NCBI GenBank assembly: GCA_023488885.1
Contig: JAMDDH010000033.1
Coordinates: forward strand, 1 to 64,000
Direction: 5' to 3'
DNA length: 64,000 nt
Source of the DNA: Thermoplasmatota archaeon
GTDB lineage: Archaea; Thermoplasmatota; Thermoplasmata; Thermoplasmatales; Thermoplasmataceae
Shown: piece after piece, positions 21,371 through 34,703 of the stretch
How positions within the stretch are numbered: position 1 is the first letter of the stretch
Layout of the letters: the number at the start of each line of letters is the position of its first letter
Translations under genes and position numbers: made by a program
The notes under the pieces: model-generated
Seen by the model: only the letters and a program-made list of their open reading frames with translations
Database searches by the model: none
Told to the model about the DNA's origin: nothing

Positions 21371-22657
21371 TTATGAAGGTTCCTTTCCATAATCAATATT
21401 CACATTTCTGGTCTCTATGCCGACTATGTACCAGATCAGTGCAGCGATAAACCCAATGACCCAGAGGCCAAGATTGAGAAGAATGAAATCGAAGATGCCC
21501 AGCATAGCGGTTAGGTAAACAGATATGACGTAAGCTGCCATTGGAGCCAGCCGAATGATTCCTATTGAAGTCGATCTTATTCTTGTAGGAACAAGTTCCG
21601 GTTCGAGCGTTGTTCTGGATGCCCATGCAAATTCGCTGAATATCATGTTGACGAATAGAAGTGGGAGGAATACCACCATATTGGCTAACATTGTGTTGAA
21701 TGCAAGAATAACGACCATCGATATTGCGCCGCCCAGAAATGATAACAACGTGAAATTTCTCCTTCCCCTGTTAATCAGGAACATGGCTGCAAAACCAGCC
21801 ACCGATGCACCTAGAAGGGCAACAAAGATGAGGACTGGATAATTGTTCGGAAAATTATAAGGGCCTATTATGTACGCCATCAGGCCAAATGTCAGGTACT
21901 GTGATACACCCATCACCATTAGTATAGCCACACTGAACAGATAAGAAGGCTGTTTAACATATTCTTCCTTCCCCTGGATAATAAGTTTTGATTTCTCCTG
22001 TTCCGCCTCGTTTTCCTTGCCCATAACCCGAAGCCATCTGTACGACTCAGGAAGCAAAATCCGTGAATATATCATGAGAAAGACCAGTATTGTAGCAGAT
22101 ACAAGAAGAATGAACCTGAAGGAGAGATCTCCAGAACCGGACATTCCAATGAAAATATGGTTCAGCACTGGACTCAGGCGCGATTCAAGTGTAGCTTCTA
22201 TCAGGAATATTCCGGACATGAATGCAGAACCTATGTTATTGAAATTTGCAACGAACGTCAGGAGCTTGGATCTTTCAGCGAATGAGAAATCCTCTGAAAT
22301 CAGTGAAAGCCCGGACGGTTCCTCGCCTCCGACTCCGAATTCGGAGAGGATTAACCCGATAAGGAGAAGGATAAGATTGGAAGCGAAAACCAGGAAAATT
22401 ATCCCAAAACCGTAAGAAATCATGGTGGCAATAAACACTCTTTTCCTGCCAATCTTATCCGCCATAATCCCCATTATGAGATTCCCTAGCATTATGACAA
22501 TCGGACCGATGGCGAGAACCAGTGTCTTTGTCTGTAGTGAAACGCTGCTCAGGAAAGGGAATGAGAGAGAAAGCGGCCCTATTGTTGCTATAATTCCCCA
22601 CATAAAGAAACTTGAAGTGGTCGAAACCAAAATTGATCTTTGTTTACTGGAATGCAA
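21371..22657 (-). CDS. MFS transporter under TPP riboswitch control
   Basis: A 428-residue, twelve-helix major facilitator protein of the sugar-porter/SP type, with motif A (GIMADKIGRKRVF) between helices 2 and 3 and PESYRW after helix 6. The start is taken as TTG 22657, because a perfect Shine-Dalgarno GGAGGTG (22664-22670) stands six bases before it; a longer frame to 22675 would place the ribosome site inside the gene. The upstream TPP riboswitch makes transport of thiamine or a precursor the best guess. Thermoplasmatales are known to have THI-element-linked transporters; specificity here is inference. Confidence 0.85.
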   Translation of the reverse strand: MHSSKQRSILVSTTSSFFMWGIIATIGPLSLSFPFLSSVSLQTKTLVLAIGPIVIMLGNLIMGIMADKIGRKRVFIATMISYGFGIIFLVFASNLILLLIGLILSEFGVGGEEPSGLSLISEDFSFAERSKLLTFVANFNNIGSAFMSGIFLIEATLESRLSPVLNHIFIGMSGSGDLSFRFILLVSATILVFLMIYSRILLPESYRWLRVMGKENEAEQEKSKLIIQGKEEYVKQPSYLFSVAILMVMGVSQYLTFGLMAYIIGPYNFPNNYPVLIFVALLGASVAGFAAMFLINRGRRNFTLLSFLGGAISMVVILAFNTMLANMVVFLPLLFVNMIFSEFAWASRTTLEPELVPTRIRSTSIGIIRLAPMAAYVISVYLTAMLGIFDFILLNLGLWVIGFIAALIWYIVGIETRNVNIDYGKEPS

Positions 22658-22660
22658 TAA

Positions 22661-22670
22661 ATACACCTCC
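22661..22670 (-). promoter_or_regulatory. strong Shine-Dalgarno fixing the MFS start
   Basis: GGAGGTG at 22664-22670 is fully complementary to the archaeal 16S 3' end (CACCTCC) and lies six bases from TTG 22657. It decides the start codon and is the likely control target of the upstream riboswitch. Confidence 0.75.
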
Positions 22671-22739
22671 AGCAAATAATCTGCTGCTAATCCAAATTGC
22701 TAACACGATAACTCTACGAAAAACGCTTGTTATACACAT

Positions 22740-22828
22740 TTCATTCCCTCCGCCAGCATTACCTGGATCAGGTTCTAAGGGTCGATCATTTGATCCTCTC
22801 AGCCTCATACGAAGCTCCCCGAACTGAC
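22740..22828 (-). promoter_or_regulatory. TPP (THI-box) riboswitch
   Basis: The minus strand carries the two conserved TPP riboswitch blocks: CTGAGAG (22797-22803) in the pyrimidine-sensing arm, and ACCTGATCCAGGTAATGC followed by TGGCGGAGGGA (about 22745-22773). The P2/P3 arm has a GATCAAATGATC hairpin. The element is 70 bases upstream of the Shine-Dalgarno of the MFS gene. A TATA-like AATATTTATG at about 22853-22863 would start the transcript just upstream. How ligand binding is read out (ribosome site masking or early termination) is not evident. Confidence 0.95.
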
Positions 22829-22851
22829 TAATTGCCTCATTATCCCCCAAT

Positions 22852-26095: not shown

Positions 26096-26821
26096 ATGGG
26101 AATGAAAAATAGCATCTTCACTCTGAGTCGCTTCCTCAAGAAGCAGTTCAGTTTGAAGGCTGATGTTAAGGCTGAATCTGGAATTGGAGTCCTTATCATA
26201 TTTATAGCTCTGGTGCTGGTTGCCGCTGTGGCTGCTTCGGTGCTAATACACACAGCAGGGATATTACAGCAGAAGGCCAGCGCTACGGGAACAACCACAA
26301 TAAACCAGGTATCTACCGGTTTGGTCATTAGCCAAATCCTCGGGTATGATGGCGCTTCTCCGCCAGAAGCTGGTGGAATCCAGTTCCTGGCAATATTCGT
26401 AACTGACAATTCGGGTGGGAATTCCATTAATATGGCCAACGTAACCTTAACTCTAACGCTTCACGGTGTTACAGCCGTACTGGTATATAACAACTCCATC
26501 TTTGAAAGCGTTTCTCAATCGGGAACCAGTAGCGTATTTGGTTCGACAGTCTGGAATAACTTGAGTGCATCTCATAACAATCCAAATAATTTCGGTATAT
26601 TTGTGATCTCCGATCCTTCACATTCGTTGAACGCAAAATACCCGGTGTTGTCACCGGGATCACAGGCAGCCATCATACTGAATGTAACAAATACTTTCGG
26701 AACCAACCTGACACAAAACACGCATGTGTCGGGTCAGATTACTCCACAGATAGGAATCCCGGCACTCGTTAATTTTGTCGCACCGGAAGCGTTCCTCAAC
26801 CACGCTATGACACTGCAGTAG
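26096..26821 (+). CDS. flaB: archaellin (archaeal flagellin)
   Basis: A 241-residue preprotein with a basic leader (about 1-26) and the archaellin N-terminal core: SGIGVLIIFIALVLVAAVAAS (28-48), followed by the conserved VLIHTAGILQQKAS. Cleavage by the prearchaellin peptidase is expected just before ESGIG. The outside domain (from about 60) is beta-rich with several N-x-S/T sites for glycosylation. No other archaellum genes lie in the window, so the motor and export genes must be elsewhere if functional. A hairpin directly follows the stop codon. Confidence 0.93.
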   Translation: MGMKNSIFTLSRFLKKQFSLKADVKAESGIGVLIIFIALVLVAAVAASVLIHTAGILQQKASATGTTTINQVSTGLVISQILGYDGASPPEAGGIQFLAIFVTDNSGGNSINMANVTLTLTLHGVTAVLVYNNSIFESVSQSGTSSVFGSTVWNNLSASHNNPNNFGIFVISDPSHSLNAKYPVLSPGSQAAIILNVTNTFGTNLTQNTHVSGQITPQIGIPALVNFVAPEAFLNHAMTLQ

Positions 26822-26830
26822 ACACCTCGT

Positions 26831-26854
26831 GCCTCCCATTTGGCCATGGGAGGC
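26831..26854 (+). terminator. hairpin after archaellin gene
   Basis: GCCTCCCAT-TTGGCC-ATGGGAGGC is a perfect 9-bp stem with a 6-base loop, 10 bases after the archaellin stop. It is not followed by a T-run, so it may stabilise the abundant mRNA 3' end or assist termination. Confidence 0.6.
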
Positions 26855-26902
26855 AATTCAGCTCATTACCGGTTAAATACATGGAGAAGATATTCCCACC
26901 GG

Positions 26903-27289
26903 ATGAAAACGCATATCCGCGGGAGCCCATTGGATTCTTCTATAGTGTCAATAATCGGGGGAATAATAATCTTGTATGTTGGAGTATATGGGCTGTACAT
27001 TCTTCTCACTGTGGGATCTTATTCAGTTTATGATCTTCTTGAAGTGATTTTTGGTACAACCTGGGGACTATTAATTGTGGTGTTCAGTGTCCTGCTATTT
27101 TTTGACAGGAATCGCCACCGGAAATATGGTTCCGCCATAATTATACTGTCTTTTGCCAGTTGGTATGGTACATCCGGAGGTCTGTTTGTAGGATTCATTC
27201 TTGCATTTCTTGGCGGCATTATGGGTCTTGTATGGAAACCAGCGAGACAAAAAACCAATGAACCTGAAGATTCGAGCAGTAGAACCTGA
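26903..27289 (+). CDS. small multi-pass membrane protein
   Basis: A 128-residue protein with four hydrophobic segments (about 12-37, 47-68, 77-92 and 95-115) ending in LGGIMGLVWKP and a polar tail. It resembles small membrane proteins of DUF6114 type, with low certainty. ATG 26903 is chosen because TTAAATA (26873-26879) lies 27 bases upstream, implying a leaderless mRNA; the longer frame from 26840 would start inside the archaellin hairpin. The stop codon lies inside a short inverted repeat ACCTGAAA-T-TTTCAGGT (27284-27300). Confidence 0.65.
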   Translation: MKTHIRGSPLDSSIVSIIGGIIILYVGVYGLYILLTVGSYSVYDLLEVIFGTTWGLLIVVFSVLLFFDRNRHRKYGSAIIILSFASWYGTSGGLFVGFILAFLGGIMGLVWKPARQKTNEPEDSSSRT

Positions 27290-27359: not shown

Positions 27360-27365
27360 TTTATA
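27360..27365 (+). promoter_or_regulatory. leu operon TATA box
   Basis: TTTATA within CAAATTTATACC is preceded by the purine-rich CGAAA (BRE-like). Transcription would begin near 27386-27390, about 135 bases ahead of the leuA start, so the leu mRNA has a long leader unlike most genes in the window. Confidence 0.6.
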
Positions 27366-27385
27366 CCATTAAAGATTTCTGCAAT

Positions 27386-27523
27386 ATTGTCGTGCTACGA
27401 CATGACAATGCAGAACCATTGGTGAACAAAGTGTTGACGTTATTAGTGCCGGAATTTCTTTTACTTGGCCAGTCAACACTCTCACCAGTGGTTCTGTAGG
27501 CAAAGAATTTTTGGTGGTGAGTT
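27386..27523 (+). ncRNA. structured 5' leader of the leu operon (unknown class)
   Basis: Two hairpins fill the leader. The first pairs ATTGTC with GACAAT (27386-27391/27404-27409), or TGTCGT-GCT-ACGACA inside it. The second is large: 27411-27425 pairs with 27482-27496 (15 bp, one G-U), then an internal loop of 4 against 1 base (ACAA/C), then 27430-27438 pairs with 27472-27480 (9 bp), closing a 33-base loop. The element ends about 27 bases before the leuA GTG. Such a layout suggests control of translation or termination. A short transposon-derived repeat (MITE) is the main alternative, although no target duplication was seen. Confidence 0.65.
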
Positions 27524-28778: not shown

Positions 28779-30050
28779 ATGAAAAATAATGGAAAAACAG
28801 CGGTTGAAAAGGTATTTTCGGAGAAATCTGGTGAGGATGTATATGCAGGGAGTATAGTAGAGGCAGAGCTGGACTATGTCATGGTGAATGATATAACAGG
28901 ACCTTCAGCAATTGATGCTTTCTACCAGCTAGATGTTGAACCGAAGAAAGAAAAAATAGTGCTCATTCCTGATCACTTCGTTCCAAGCAAGGACATTGCA
29001 TCCGCAACACAGTCAAAAAAGTTGAGGGACTTTGCTTGGAAACACGAAATGCCCAATTACTTCGAAGTTGGGAGAGGAGGAGTTTGCCACCAGGTTATGA
29101 TGGAAAAGGGCTTCGCCACACCTGGTGCACTTATTGCAGGGGCAGATTCACACACTTGCACTTACGGCGCCCTGGGGGCCATTTCAGTTGGAATAGGCGG
29201 AACTGAGGCAGGCGTTATTTTTGGAACCGGTAGGATGTGGTTTAAGGTTCCCGAAACAATGATGTTCAGGATTAATGGCGAGCTTGATTCTTCAGTTGAA
29301 GGTAAGGATGTCATACTTAACCTGATCTCAAGAATAGGAGTTGAGGGAGGGAGATACAAATGCCTGGAATTCAGGGGTGAAGGTGTTGAAGGCCTAGGTG
29401 TATCTGATAGAATGACGATGGCCAACATGGCGTCAGAAGCTGGAGCAAAGTGTGCTTTCATGGCACCTGACAAAAAAACAGAAGACTATCTTAATTCCAG
29501 ATCGAGAAAAACATGGTCTTTTATTGATTCGGACAGTGATGCTAATTATGACAGGATCTTCGATATTGATGCGTCAGAACTTGAACCAGTTGTTTCTATG
29601 CCAGGTTCTCCGGCGGATGTTAAGCCTGTTTCAGAAGTGAATGACGAGATAGACCAGGCCTATATTGGATCGTGTACAAACGGAAGAATAGAAGACATAA
29701 GGCGAGCTGCCCAAGTTCTGAAAGGAAAGAAAGTGCATCCCAGAACCAGACTGATTGTGGTTCCATCAAGCCAGCAGGTTTTCGAGGATGCAGTATCTGA
29801 AGGTCTCGTAAAATTGATTGCAGAAGCCGGCGGATATGTGTCTGGACCGACATGTGGTGCATGTCTGGGAGGATACATGGGTGTTCTGGGCCCGGGTGAA
29901 AGATGTATCTCCAGTACTAACAGGAATTTTCTTGGAAGAATGGGAGACAAGGATTCTAAGGTCTATCTTGCGAATCCATCTGTTGTTGCTGCCAGTTCCA
30001 TACTTGGAAGAATAGCTTCACCGAGAGAGGTGTATGAAATTGTCAAATGA
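28779..30050 (+). CDS. leuC: 3-isopropylmalate dehydratase large subunit
   Basis: LeuC is the [4Fe-4S] subunit of isopropylmalate isomerase. The 423-residue protein has the aconitase-type cysteines: one in GSCTNGR and two in PTCGACLGG. DSHTCTYGALG is the substrate-binding loop. The ATG is preceded by AGAGGTGAAAG, a good ribosome site. The archaeal-type length also occurs in homoaconitases; context favours leucine. It overlaps leuD by 17 bases. Confidence 0.9.
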   Translation: MKNNGKTAVEKVFSEKSGEDVYAGSIVEAELDYVMVNDITGPSAIDAFYQLDVEPKKEKIVLIPDHFVPSKDIASATQSKKLRDFAWKHEMPNYFEVGRGGVCHQVMMEKGFATPGALIAGADSHTCTYGALGAISVGIGGTEAGVIFGTGRMWFKVPETMMFRINGELDSSVEGKDVILNLISRIGVEGGRYKCLEFRGEGVEGLGVSDRMTMANMASEAGAKCAFMAPDKKTEDYLNSRSRKTWSFIDSDSDANYDRIFDIDASELEPVVSMPGSPADVKPVSEVNDEIDQAYIGSCTNGRIEDIRRAAQVLKGKKVHPRTRLIVVPSSQQVFEDAVSEGLVKLIAEAGGYVSGPTCGACLGGYMGVLGPGERCISSTNRNFLGRMGDKDSKVYLANPSVVAASSILGRIASPREVYEIVK

Positions 30051-30534
30051 TCTTATCAGCGGTAAAATCTGGCGGCTTGGAGATAATGTCGATACCGATC
30101 AGATCATACCGGCGAAGTACCTGGTCACCTCTGATCCAGATAAACTGGCGATGCATTTTATGGAAAACACACACCCTGAACTGGCAAAGTCGATCGGGAA
30201 AGGTGACATAATCGTTGCCGGGAGGAATTTTGGATGCGGGTCAAGCAGGGAACATGCTGTAAAGACGATACAGGGATGTGGAATCAGGCTGGTCATTGCC
30301 GAGAGTTTTGCCAGAATATTTTTCAGGAATTCTATTAATCTTGGTCTTCCCGTGATAGAGGCAAAAATTGAAGCCCCTGAGGGAACTGTTCTGAATGTCG
30401 ACATGGAAAAGGGGAGAATACACTGGGATTCCGGTGAATCTGAATTTCAGAAATATCCACCTTTCCTGAAAAAGATCGTCGATAGTGGAAGCATCATAAA
30501 TTATGCAAAGGAGGGGTTAATACGGCAAAAGTAG
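30034..30534 (+). CDS. leuD: 3-isopropylmalate dehydratase small subunit
   Basis: LeuD is the swivelling small subunit that completes the isomerase active site. The 166-residue protein has the motifs NVDTDQIIPAKYL and GRNFGCGSSREHA, the latter with the conserved serine-arginine pair, and AESFARIFFRNSINLGLP. It overlaps both neighbours (17 bases into leuC, 13 into leuB), so the leu genes are strongly coupled. A YLVT-type specificity loop (KYLVTSDP) follows the first motif. Confidence 0.92.
   Translation: MKLSNDLISGKIWRLGDNVDTDQIIPAKYLVTSDPDKLAMHFMENTHPELAKSIGKGDIIVAGRNFGCGSSREHAVKTIQGCGIRLVIAESFARIFFRNSINLGLPVIEAKIEAPEGTVLNVDMEKGRIHWDSGESEFQKYPPFLKKIVDSGSIINYAKEGLIRQK
30510..30524 (+). promoter_or_regulatory. 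Shine-Dalgarno and ACG start of leuB
   Basis: GGAGGGG (30510-30516) is followed after five bases by ACG GCA AAA GTA, in frame with LeuB. No ATG, GTG or TTG lies between the in-frame stop TAG at 30483 and the nucleotide-binding motif GDGIG, so ACG at 30522 is the best start candidate. Confidence 0.6.
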
Positions 30535-31616
30535 CAGTAATACGGGGAGATGGCATCGGTAAGGAGGTTATCCCTTCAGCAATCTCCTGTATAAAAAGCG
30601 TTACGGATGATAGTGTAGAGTTCGTGGAATTTGACATCTCCGCTGAGAGATATCTTGATTCCGGAAGACTGTTGTCTGAAGAAGAAATAAATCAGATCAG
30701 GTCAATGGATTCGGTGCTATTTGGAGCAGTTGGTGATCCGAGAGTCAGACCAGGCATACTGGAGCGGGGAATTATAATCAAGCTTCGTACTGAGCTTGAC
30801 CTTTTTATGAATCTGAGGCCTTCGTGGTCTCTCCCGTTCTCCAGCACCAAATTCAATATCGCTGTGGCCAGAGAGAATACTGAAGAGTTTTACATCGGAT
30901 TTGGCGGAAAGCTGGAAAAAAGCCCTACCACTTTTTCATATTCCAGTCAGGCGTGGAAAGGAAACGTGAAGATATCCGGTGATACAGACGACGACGTATA
31001 TTTCAACGTAGGAATGATGAGTAGAAGGAACACCGAACGATACTTTGAGATGGTCTGTGATCTGGCAGATGAGAGAAAGGTAAAAGAAGTGACTGTTGTA
31101 GACAAGGCTAACGCGGTTCCGGGTATATATGATATCTGGCGTGAAACTGGGAAGAGGGTTCTTGGGAAACATGGTATTGGACCCTCGTTCATGTATGGTG
31201 ATGCCGTTGCATACGGGCTTGTTATGAAACCTGACAGATTCAACCTTATTGCTGCCTCAAATCTGTATGGAGATATCCTTTCAGATCTGTGCTCTGGACT
31301 CATGGGGGGGCTGGGTTTCACACCAAGTGGAAATTATGGATCTGGAAGAATTGCTCTCTTTGAACCGGTACATGGTAGTGCTCCTGATATTGCAGGAAAA
31401 GGCGTCGCGAACCCCATCGGTACAATTCTTTCCTCATCAATGATGCTTAAGCATCTTGGAATGAAAAAAGAATCACGGATCATCAGGGAAGCAGTTGATT
31501 TAACCATATCTCAAGGCATCAGGACTTTTGATATTGGCGGTTCCGATGGTACCAGTAAAGTTACTCAGGCAATCATGAAAAATATTGAACGGAAAATAAT
31601 TGCAAATGATGTGTGA
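30522..31616 (+). CDS. leuB: 3-isopropylmalate dehydrogenase, ACG start
   Basis: A 364-residue beta-decarboxylating dehydrogenase that oxidises 3-isopropylmalate with NAD+. The N-terminus AKVAVIRGDGIGKEV carries the conserved nucleotide/substrate site; ARENTEEFY, the VVDKANAVP catalytic lysine segment and SNLYGDILSDL (metal aspartates) follow. The first canonical ATG (30624) would remove the whole GDGIG region, so translation must begin earlier; a strong Shine-Dalgarno fits ACG 30522. Homoisocitrate dehydrogenase is a close paralogue, and context favours LeuB. The stop is followed by a short gap to the convergent ilvC. Confidence 0.85.
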   Translation, partial: TAKVAVIRGDGIGKEVIPSAISCIKSVTDDSVEFVEFDISAERYLDSGRLLSEEEINQIRSMDSVLFGAVGDPRVRPGILERGIIIKLRTELDLFMNLRPSWSLPFSSTKFNIAVARENTEEFYIGFGGKLEKSPTTFSYSSQAWKGNVKISGDTDDDVYFNVGMMSRRNTERYFEMVCDLADERKVKEVTVVDKANAVPGIYDIWRETGKRVLGKHGIGPSFMYGDAVAYGLVMKPDRFNLIAASNLYGDILSDLCSGLMGGLGFTPSGNYGSGRIALFEPVHGSAPDIAGKGVANPIGTILSSSMMLKHLGMKKESRIIREAVDLTISQGIRTFDIGGSDGTSKVTQAIMKNIERKIIANDV

Positions 31617-31674: not shown

Positions 31675-32670
31675 TTATTTTTTAACAAACATGCTTCTTA
31701 GTTCTTTGCCAACCTGTTCCAGAGTTTCTTTCTGAGAATCCGATCTCATTTTACTAAGATTCGGGATTCCTTTGTGGTATTCGTTCATCCACTCATCAGC
31801 AAAATTCCCGTTTTGAACCTCTTTAAGAACTTCCCTCATGTTATTGACGACATGCTGATCTATAATCCTTGAGCCTCTTGTTCGTCCACCGTATTCAGCT
31901 GTGTTGCTAACTGCGTTCCACATATTTTCAAAGCCGCCGTTCTGTATTAGATCAACGATGAGTTTCATCTCGTGGAGAACCTCGAAATATGCTATCTCTG
32001 GTTGATATCCTTCTGAAATGAGTATTTTGAATGCCTCGCCAATTAAACCTGTTATTCCACCACAAAGAACTGCCTGTTCTCCAAAATTATCCGTCTCCGT
32101 CTCTTCCTTGAACGTTGTCTTTATCACGCCTGCCCTGGTAGCCCCTATGCCCTTGGCAAGTGCCATAACAACGTCCCAAGCTTTTCCTGAGTAATCTTTT
32201 TCAACCGCAACTAGCGAAGGTGTGCCGAATCCTTCCTCGTATGTGCTTCTTACCTTTGGTCCCGGGGATTTGGGTGCAACCATTACAATATCCACCCCAT
32301 CAGGCGGCGTAATTCGTTTGAAATGTATATTGAAGCCATGACCGAAATCAAGCGTTTTCCCCGGTTTCAGAGCAGGAGCTATTTCACTCTTGTAAACTTC
32401 TGACTGCACTTCGTCCGGAATCAGAACCATGATCACATCTGCCTTTTCACAGGCTTCCCTGACACCCATTGGCTTGAAACCGTCAGACTGTGCCTTTGTC
32501 CAGCTTTTTCCCTTTTCTCTGAGTCCTATGGTTACGTCCATTCCGGAATCTCTCAGGTTCATGGACTGGGCTCTTCCCTGACTCCCATATCCAACAACAG
32601 TTATTTTCTTACCCTTTAGAGCTTTCAAATCCGCATCTTTTTCATAGTATGCTTTCACCAAATATTTCAC
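31675..32670 (-). CDS. ilvC: ketol-acid reductoisomerase, class I
   Basis: IlvC rearranges and reduces acetolactate or acetohydroxybutyrate for valine, leucine and isoleucine synthesis. The 331-residue length is the short class I form. The Rossmann motif GYGSQGRAQSMN is near residue 27, and metal-binding acidic residues are in the TETDNFGEQAVLCGG and YFEVLHEMK segments. It starts inside the 3' end of ilvN (29-base overlap) and is the last gene of ilvB-ilvN-ilvC. Confidence 0.95.
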   Translation of the reverse strand: MKYLVKAYYEKDADLKALKGKKITVVGYGSQGRAQSMNLRDSGMDVTIGLREKGKSWTKAQSDGFKPMGVREACEKADVIMVLIPDEVQSEVYKSEIAPALKPGKTLDFGHGFNIHFKRITPPDGVDIVMVAPKSPGPKVRSTYEEGFGTPSLVAVEKDYSGKAWDVVMALAKGIGATRAGVIKTTFKEETETDNFGEQAVLCGGITGLIGEAFKILISEGYQPEIAYFEVLHEMKLIVDLIQNGGFENMWNAVSNTAEYGGRTRGSRIIDQHVVNNMREVLKEVQNGNFADEWMNEYHKGIPNLSKMRSDSQKETLEQVGKELRSMFVKK

Positions 32671-32899
32671 CTTCTTTCACTAATACAATCTCGGCGTTCC
32701 TTACGCCATATATCTTGCTCAGATTCCTCAGCACCTTCTGAGCGTCTTCTTCCCTGTTCAAGGAGAACTGCATTGTTATTCCGCTTGTTCCTCTCCTGTA
32801 GAACAGTCCTTCTATTGGAATGTTTCGCTTGCTGAACTCAAATATTGCCCTCTGTAGAGTCCCTTCTTCATCATCTGCCAAAATTCGCAATTTCACCAT
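32642..32899 (-). CDS. ilvN: acetolactate synthase small (regulatory) subunit
   Basis: An 85-residue protein made of a single ACT domain (KLRILADDEEGTLQRAIFEFSKRNIPIEG...), the core of the acetolactate synthase regulatory subunit that binds branched-chain amino acids. It lacks the C-terminal domain of longer IlvH proteins. It overlaps ilvB by 29 bases at its start and ilvC by 29 at its end, so all three are tightly coupled. Confidence 0.87.
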   Translation of the reverse strand: MVKLRILADDEEGTLQRAIFEFSKRNIPIEGLFYRRGTSGITMQFSLNREEDAQKVLRNLSKIYGVRNAEIVLVKEGEIFGESIL

Positions 32900-34586
32900 T
32901 GCTTATATTCCCCCATTTGCATTTCCCAAAAACAACTGAGCTTCTGCCAGCACCTGCCGGAATCATCGGGAGGCAATCTTCCATCACGTCGACCCGGACA
33001 TCGGCCACAAAAGGCACGTCACTTTTCAATCCTGCTTTTATCGCATCGGCCACTTCGCTTGCTTTTTCCACTACAACACCGTTTCCTCCCATTGCCTCTG
33101 CAAATTTAGCAAAATTGGGTCCCTTTTCATAGTCTGTAGAGAAAATATGGTGGTTGTAGAACTGTTTCTGGAACTGTCTGACCATTCCCAGGCTGCCGTT
33201 ATTCATCACGATGATGAATACGGGTACATTGTTTTCAACTGCCGTGGAAAATTCAGAAAAGGTCATCTGGAAGCCTCCGTCCCCTACAAGGCTGACCACT
33301 TTCCTGTCCGGCGCAGCAATTTTCGCCCCGATAGCTGCCGGTAGACCGAAACCCATGGTTCCAAGACCACCGGAAGTTATGAAGTTCCTCCTTCCCCTTG
33401 TCTCAAAATAATGCGCTGCAAACATTTGGTGCTGTCCAACGTCAGCGGTCAGGATAACGTCATCCGGCAGGAGTCTTGACATTTCGTATATCAACTTCTG
33501 TGGTTTCAAAGGTTGATCTCCATAGTTGATGTCACATTTACAAAAGGACTTCATGGAAGCTGCCCTGACGGTCCACTGTATTCTTTTCCCTGCGTAATCC
33601 TGAATGTGACTGTTAAGCAAGCTGACTATTTCGATGCATGATCCGGTCAGTCCTATCACTCCGTCAACGTTTTTACCTATTTCCCTGCCATCTATATCCA
33701 CATGGATGACTTTGGCAGAGGGGAGGAAGTCGGAGGTTTTACTTGTGGTTCTGTCGCTGAAGCGTGTTCCAAGTGCTATTACAAGATCCGTCTCATTCAT
33801 AAGTTGTTGTGTGGACCACCTTCCAAACATGCCTGTTGTGCCCATGGAGAGGGGGTGATCTTCTGGAACAGCTCCTTTCCCCATTACTGTAGTAATTACC
33901 GGAGAGCCCATCTTCTCAGCGAATTTCATGATATCCGCACCGCAATCATCCCATTTTGCACCACCTCCTACTAGAATTACGGGTCTCTGCGATGAATTCA
34001 GCGCGTGAAGCGCCTGTGAAAGTGCCTCAAAGTTTGTCTCGTACAATAGTTCCGGAATCTTGCCTGAAACTCTTGAAGTTGCATCTTTCATTGCCACGTC
34101 CGCAGGAACATCAATAGACACCGGACCAAATCTTCCTGTCATTGATACTTTATATGCCTTATCAACCGTGATCGGAATCTCTTCGGGAGATTTCACCTTG
34201 AAGTTGAATTTTGTCACAGGTATCATAAGATCAAAGGCGTCGGATTCCTGGAAGGAGTCCCTGCCCATTGCTCTGGTTGAAACCTGCCCAGTTATTCCAA
34301 TAACGGGAGATGAGTCCACATATGCCGTGGCCATTCCAGTGACCATATTAGTTGCACCCGGACCAGAAGTAACCAGACAAACCGCCGGTTTTCTTGCCAC
34401 TCTGGCATAACCATCAGCCATGTGAACTGCACTTGCTTCCTGTCTCGCAAGTATATTCAGGAAATTACTGGAAAACAACTCATCGTATATTGCCAGGTTC
34501 GCACCGCCCGGAATACCAAAAACTGTATCCAGACCGCGTTCGTAAAGGGATTCCAGAAGAATTTTAGCTCCTTTTATAACATTCAC
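32871..34586 (-). CDS. ilvB: acetolactate synthase large subunit
   Basis: A 571-residue ThDP enzyme that condenses pyruvate to acetolactate. The catalytic glutamate is E50 (ARQEASAVHMADGYAR); the ThDP motif GDGGFQMTFSEF...NN lies in the last third. The frame starts with GTG 34586 and continues NVIKGAKILLESL, the usual N-terminus. A TATA box is found about 140 bases upstream, giving a leader of about 110 bases, and an inverted repeat lies across the predicted transcription start. First gene of the ilv operon, convergent with leu. Confidence 0.95.
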   Translation of the reverse strand: MNVIKGAKILLESLYERGLDTVFGIPGGANLAIYDELFSSNFLNILARQEASAVHMADGYARVARKPAVCLVTSGPGATNMVTGMATAYVDSSPVIGITGQVSTRAMGRDSFQESDAFDLMIPVTKFNFKVKSPEEIPITVDKAYKVSMTGRFGPVSIDVPADVAMKDATSRVSGKIPELLYETNFEALSQALHALNSSQRPVILVGGGAKWDDCGADIMKFAEKMGSPVITTVMGKGAVPEDHPLSMGTTGMFGRWSTQQLMNETDLVIALGTRFSDRTTSKTSDFLPSAKVIHVDIDGREIGKNVDGVIGLTGSCIEIVSLLNSHIQDYAGKRIQWTVRAASMKSFCKCDINYGDQPLKPQKLIYEMSRLLPDDVILTADVGQHQMFAAHYFETRGRRNFITSGGLGTMGFGLPAAIGAKIAAPDRKVVSLVGDGGFQMTFSEFSTAVENNVPVFIIVMNNGSLGMVRQFQKQFYNHHIFSTDYEKGPNFAKFAEAMGGNGVVVEKASEVADAIKAGLKSDVPFVADVRVDVMEDCLPMIPAGAGRSSVVFGKCKWGNISNGEIANFGR

Positions 34587-34684
34587 CTCATTTTTGCGAC
34601 AAAACAGAAGAAGTTAAGTCGCTTACCGAATAACTAAGCCAATAATACCCGAAATAGTGTTCAGAATAACGTTGCTAGCAGTTG

Positions 34685-34703
34685 GGTTAGGCCTCATCTA
34701 ACC
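34685..34703 (-). promoter_or_regulatory. inverted repeat at the ilvB transcription start
   Basis: GGTTAG-N7-CTAACC lies about 25 bases downstream of the minus-strand TATA element TATTTATA (34721-34728), which places it on the expected start of transcription. A wider pairing GTTG/CAAC (34681-34711) extends it with a bulge. A repressor operator is the simplest reading; a 5'-terminal RNA hairpin is the alternative. Confidence 0.5.

Follow-up and report, generated by a model that had tools for sequence, protein, structure and literature searches.

The DNA analysed here, hereafter the window, is a 64,000-nucleotide (nt) stretch of contig JAMDDH010000033.1 from a Thermoplasmatota archaeon of the family Thermoplasmataceae, and the element in question is the leader RNA at positions 27386–27523, immediately upstream of a leucine (leu) operon. 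We regard this leader, with good confidence, as a ribosome-mediated leucine leader-peptide attenuator, which most likely acts on the translation of leuA. The original prediction, made for the same leader, overlooked that its hairpin encodes a Leu-rich leader peptide and set leader-peptide attenuation aside as not established in archaea, yet the feature conserved across the class Thermoplasmata is a Leu-rich open reading frame (ORF).

The codons of the leader ORF in the window (27431–27499; Table 1) are GTG TTG ACG TTA TTA GTG CCG GAA TTT CTT TTA CTT GGC CAG TCA ACA CTC TCA CCA GTG GTT CTG TAG. A DNA search of 61 relatives revealed one clear homologous leader, located upstream of leuA in a genome (G013) from a different genus of this family, and the G013 leader ORF, MLTLVLHEVLLLNESTLSPVVL, matches the window ORF in length and position. 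Of the codons that differ between these ORFs, 7 of 14 were synonymous in the ORF frame, and the two alternative frames gave 0 of 11 and 1 of 12; the stop codon is kept (TAG in the window, TAA in G013), and the G013 ORF has no internal stop. The frame-specific synonymous substitution and the kept stops together say, as far as sequence comparison goes, that the leader ORF is coding. The leader start that is preceded by a Shine-Dalgarno (SD) sequence in the window lies 71 nt past the TATA box, and the start measured in G013 lies 73 nt past its own TATA-like box. An in-frame GTG at 27392, 32 nt from the TATA box, would extend the window ORF upstream, but this extension is uncertain because it is out of frame in G013. 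In 9 of the 10 other leader-bearing family genomes measured (the exception being G013), the leader start codon follows a TATA-like box by 30–31 nt, a spacing that suggests a leader ORF beginning at the 5′ end of the transcript, without an SD, in most family relatives.

Across the class, an ORF with a Leu run, defined as at least 4 Leu in 8 residues, was found upstream of leuA in 62 of 95 non-redundant regions, with 7.9 expected from dinucleotide shuffles. When the cut was raised to at least 5 Leu in 8, 27 class leuA regions had such an ORF (0.7 expected), and amino acids other than Leu showed no comparable excess in the 95 upstream regions. Within the window's family, leuA was found in 17 of 77 genomes, the genus-mates of the window being without it, and the leader ORFs encode MNSIMFIEQLFFLLLE, MNSITFIRQLYFLLLE, MNTIIFTQQLFFLLLQ, MNGMVFTQLLFLLAE, MFNIVSNNANVLFLGLHSGH, and similar peptides; those elsewhere in the class encode MICNAFIGLLLLLE, MVNESRGLLLLLPLGLILLA, MSGNIRNQDLLLRLLPISLL, MRQSIFIGELLLLH, and others. 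The primary sequence of the leader varies between class groups, and the Leu-run ORF is kept. The leader stop is mostly, though not always, located 31–41 nt upstream of leuA; in some cases the leuA or leader start used for this distance was set by rule and could be incorrect. Named records with Leu leaders come from Methanomassiliicoccales, other Thermoplasmata, and one member of the Altiarchaeales. Among 80 named leuA loci, Leu-run ORFs in other archaea are mostly sporadic, with one Altiarchaeales locus that looks real (L124, outside the Thermoplasmata), where the leuA match at 1743 has a Leu-rich ORF ending GYLPGLELLLLLLGLRE about 200 nt ahead of it. In class loci such as L217 and L193, the coding start of leuA repeats a leader motif (CCAGTGAGAGCTA and ACCAGTGAGAACGCTA in L217), which could permit further alternative pairing.

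The matching of leader codons to the pathway, that is, Leu, Val/Ile/Leu, and His, is the strongest sign of attenuation in these sequences. At 13 of 30 ilvB loci (1.6 expected), an ORF had 7 or more Ile/Leu/Val within 10 residues, and control residue groups lay near expectation; the ilvB leader of the window just misses this cut with 6. Six of the eight his operons in the window's family have a His-run ORF (at least 4 His in 8; 0.2 expected), and the window's own genome supplies one of the other two. Operons other than leu were sampled through three gene families only. That leader-peptide attenuation is general for leu, ilv, and his operons across this archaeal class, often with leader ORFs at the 5′ end and with an origin independent of bacteria, seems to us reasonably probable. 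Several family genomes lack a Val/Ile/Leu ilvB leader and share a conserved element like AAGGTTTATCTAACATCTGTGGCG upstream of ilvB (L279–L284). In the window itself, ilvB carries ATA (34575–34586, minus strand) in place of the ATG or TTG with which its relatives begin (MKG), so that its start is either an upstream GTG or a rare codon.

The window leader is predicted to fold with an energy of −51.6 kcal/mol, compared with a mean of −33.0 for dinucleotide shuffles (z −5.28), and 0 of 200 shuffles matched its stability. The predicted fold contains the 5′-terminal hairpin, the 9-base-pair (bp) inner stem, the 4/1 internal loop, and the 33-base apical loop of the original prediction; the outer stem is also present, at 16 bp rather than the 15 bp claimed. 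The apical loop holds most of the Leu-codon stretch. A TATA box had been placed at 27360, where a TATA-like sequence indeed lies, and the presumed transcription start was positioned from it. The ribosome site of leuA, UGGUGGUGAG, had been described as weak, but it is not, with −10.8 kcal/mol against the 16S tail. The inverted repeat at the predicted start site (27388–27407) could act as an RNA hairpin or as an operator. It is kept in the G013 leader and occurs once in the window's genome, and the sole other copy in G013 sits within coding sequence; as neither genome has a second intergenic copy, the palindrome was rejected as a shared operator.

Alignment of ten family leaders pointed to two mutually exclusive pairings, seen in the family only and with compensatory support mainly for the first helix. 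In this first helix, the segment right after the leader stop pairs with the first codons of the leader: 91% of cells were paired and 4 pairs changed on both sides, whereas the same helix slid out of register gave 35–54% paired and 0–1 such pairs. The covariation that the original prediction proposed to look for in relatives is thus present. This post-stop segment is also a complement of the leuA SD, in a second helix that is 100% paired and has a single pair changed on both sides. One lineage shows a joint change from A/T/A to G/C/G across the columns of the first partner, the shared segment, and the SD, and the triple of 5′ arm (27420–27425 in the window), anti-SD, and leuA SD reads TGGTGA/TCACCA/TGGTGA in the window and GGGTGA/TCACCC/GGGTGA in G013. 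An alignment-wide structure for the f11 group was also considered and set aside, since its 6-bp stem is nearly invariant and therefore uninformative and its inner stem is variable.

In the mechanism that we propose, a ribosome would translate the short Leu-rich ORF within the leader. The anti-SD (27481–27487) would have two possible partners: the 5′ arm carrying the leader initiation region, in which case the ribosome site of leuA would stay free, or that ribosome site itself, which would then be closed. When leucine is ample, ribosomes would keep loading at the leader start, pass through, and open the 5′ stem, and the anti-SD would close leuA. When charged tRNA-Leu is scarce, a ribosome would dwell on the Leu codons of the apical loop and hinder new initiation; the outer stem would then hold, and leuA would be translated. 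What we infer, together with transcription from the TATA box, is that ribosomes stall at the Leu codons, that the response has this sign, and that the output is translation rather than transcription termination. The leader was also folded with a ribosome-sized block placed at each codon. In this model, the window leuA SD was 0.75 open in RNA without a ribosome, 0.13 open when a ribosome sat at the leader start, and 0.44–0.75 open when it sat on the central Leu codons; these values fit a leader whose active translation represses leuA and on which stalling lifts the repression.

Several observations weigh against the attenuator as proposed: (i) the clear switch in the folding model is confined to the window, and G013 has the same parts, yet its predicted fold differs; (ii) in leaderless relatives, the modelled SD becomes accessible chiefly once the ribosome has reached the last codon or the stop, and ribosome-position folding gave no consistent difference in SD opening class-wide; (iii) the covariation between anti-SD and SD is weak, being reached by 56 of 500 shuffles, and an anti-SD partly fits any SD because SDs resemble each other; (iv) 33 of the 95 class leuA loci lack a Leu run under the strict criterion; and (v) no Trp leader ORFs were found upstream of trpE. 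A class-wide model of a stalled ribosome opening the SD was dropped, since no consistent difference appeared outside the window's family. From the modelling, a translational switch has support in the window and is plausible in the family as a whole; across the class, no simple rule emerged.

The main rival concerns the output. It keeps the leader peptide and the stalling ribosome and has RNA polymerase terminate at the T5 tract (27508–27512), a possibility that we consider doubtful but worth weighing. Archaeal polymerase can terminate at U-tracts without a trailing ribosome, and the window, G013, and most family leaders have a T-tract shortly before the leuA SD. However, the tract has only about 5 T, it directly abuts the leuA SD, and it is absent from several class groups that have Leu leaders; the pairing of the anti-SD with the SD fits a translational output. 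Reading of the window and its relatives, without a dedicated terminator scan, revealed no G+C-rich terminator hairpin before the T5 tract.

Alternatively, ribosomes finishing at the leader stop could open, or be handed over to, the leuA start, so that leader translation would activate leuA. The short and fairly constant distance between leader stop and leuA and the SD opening modelled near the stop in leaderless relatives agree with such coupling, but it would have ample leucine induce leucine synthesis and leaves the matching of Leu, Val/Ile/Leu, and His codons unexplained, and we find it unlikely. A structured leader that binds a metabolite, tRNA, or protein, with the ORF incidental, would account for the strong fold of 27386–27523, and the start-site palindrome could be an operator; it is nevertheless very improbable, given that the Leu-run ORF rather than the primary sequence is conserved between groups and that substitution in the ORF is frame-specific. 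Rfam covariance models matched neither the leader nor 20 related loci at gathering scores, and no tRNA- or ligand-binding domain was recognised in the leader. Of the options in the original prediction, a leucine-responsive leader is the best reading; an aptamer, or a new class of leader that responds to tRNA or protein, is improbable. The long inverted repeat had also raised a scattered miniature inverted-repeat transposable element or a chance hairpin, which is refuted to near certainty by the single full copy in the genome (other matches span 14–24 nt), the homologous leader upstream of leuA in another genus, and the compensatory changes among relatives.

The originally claimed leucine operon is itself supported by homologues of leuA, leuC, leuD, and leuB. 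The window LeuA has Pfam matches to HMGL-like and HCS_D2 only, with no C-terminal regulatory domain detected by Pfam, and LeuA is 394–418 residues long in the window's family versus 530–600 for many others of the class. LeuA is thus short and, in the window, without a regulatory domain match; therefore, another form of control would be useful. Downstream of the leu genes, the small subunit of the ilv operon gave no NCBIfam match. Upstream of the leu leader, an archaeal flagellin (pilin-like) gene is followed by a gene for a DUF6114 protein (26096–27289, plus strand), and a thiamine pyrophosphate riboswitch (Rfam RF00059, 66.5 bits; 22730–22831, minus strand) lies just upstream of a gene for a major facilitator superfamily-type transporter (21371–22675).

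Table 1. Features of the leu leader and neighbouring operons in the window (leader peptides end at a stop codon; RNA elements are predicted).
Feature	Position	Strand	Basis or remark
TATA box of the leu operon, TTTATACC	27360–27367	+	sequence
5′ hairpin / inverted repeat TGTCRTG-N6-CATGACA (27388–27407), at predicted start site	27386–27409	+	predicted fold
Outer stem, 16 bp	27410–27425 / 27482–27497	+	predicted fold
Outer-stem 5′ arm	27410–27425	+	carries SD-like TGGTGA of leader ORF (27420–27425)
4/1 internal loop between outer and inner stems			predicted fold
Inner stem, 9 bp	27430–27438 / 27472–27480	+	predicted fold
Apical loop, 33 nt	27439–27471	+	predicted fold
Possible leaderless extension of leader ORF, in-frame GTG, 35 residues, MLRHDNAEPLVNKVLTLLVPEFLLLGQSTLSPVVL	27392–27499	+	
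Leucine leader peptide ORF, MLTLLVPEFLLLGQSTLSPVVL	27431–27499	+	8 Leu in 22 codons; stem-loop itself coding
Leu codon cluster CTT TTA CTT, codons 10–12, in apical loop; presumed stalling site	27458–27466	+	sequence, ribosome-position folding
Anti-SD CTCACCA	27481–27487	+	TCACCA pairs with 27420–27425; CTCACCA with 27515–27521
T5 tract ahead of leuA SD, possible weak archaeal terminator	27508–27512	+	sequence
leuA SD, GGTGGTGAG	27513–27521	+	sequestered in alternative predicted fold
leuA homologue, 411 residues	27524–28759	+	TIGR02090, 465 bits, under curated cut-off 485
leuC, leuD, leuB homologues	28779–30050, 30034–30534, 30624–31616	+	NCBIfam matches
ilvB, small ACT-like subunit (by position), ilvC	31675–34586	−	TIGR00118 and ilvC matches
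Leader ORF before ilvB, MRPNPTASNVILNTISGIIGLVIR	34623–34697	−	leaderless, ATG 29 nt from own TATA box

In bacteria, leader-peptide attenuation is a textbook mechanism, one that relies on the manner in which ribosomes encounter transcripts. In the proteobacterial attenuators leuL, ilvL, hisL, and thrL, the leader peptides are short and rich in end-product codons, the position of the ribosome chooses between two RNA folds, and the leader ends in an intrinsic terminator. By contrast, no hairpin terminator is evident in the present leader, in which the alternative helix covers the ribosome site, and the leader ORF of most family relatives appears to start at the 5′ end of the transcript without an SD. 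The T-box and riboswitch leaders are likewise structured 5′ leaders of amino-acid genes, but the conserved part here is an ORF. The actinobacterial LEU element, which has a Leu-codon ORF upstream of leuA with SD pairing and whose mode of regulation was left open by its authors (PMC1262725), resembles the window leader in its base stem involving the leuA SD box and in its predicted alternative structures. By its published description it is, however, bacterial, with a run of Leu codons that is itself the partner of the SD and with a pseudoknot (PMC1262725), whereas the SD partner in the window is a separate CTCACCA near the ORF end rather than the Leu cluster. In ermC-type translational attenuation, a ribosome stalled in the leader ORF frees the SD of the following gene (PMC10219788); the inducer there is a drug that acts on the ribosome, whereas the signal proposed here is a shortage of charged tRNA. 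No archaeal leader-peptide attenuator was found in the literature searched, which leaves out most subscription papers and all preprints, and earlier reports are possible. Two papers mention attenuation without an archaeal leader-peptide case (PMC13158618, PMC10746257), and one tool paper mentions upstream-ORF attenuation in archaea in passing, citing reviews.

If the proposed attenuation holds on three operon types across the class, archaea would sense charged tRNA through translating ribosomes, and many ORFs of 13–35 codons would gain a function. Transcription–translation coupling and leaderless initiation in archaea would then become testable with simple reporters.
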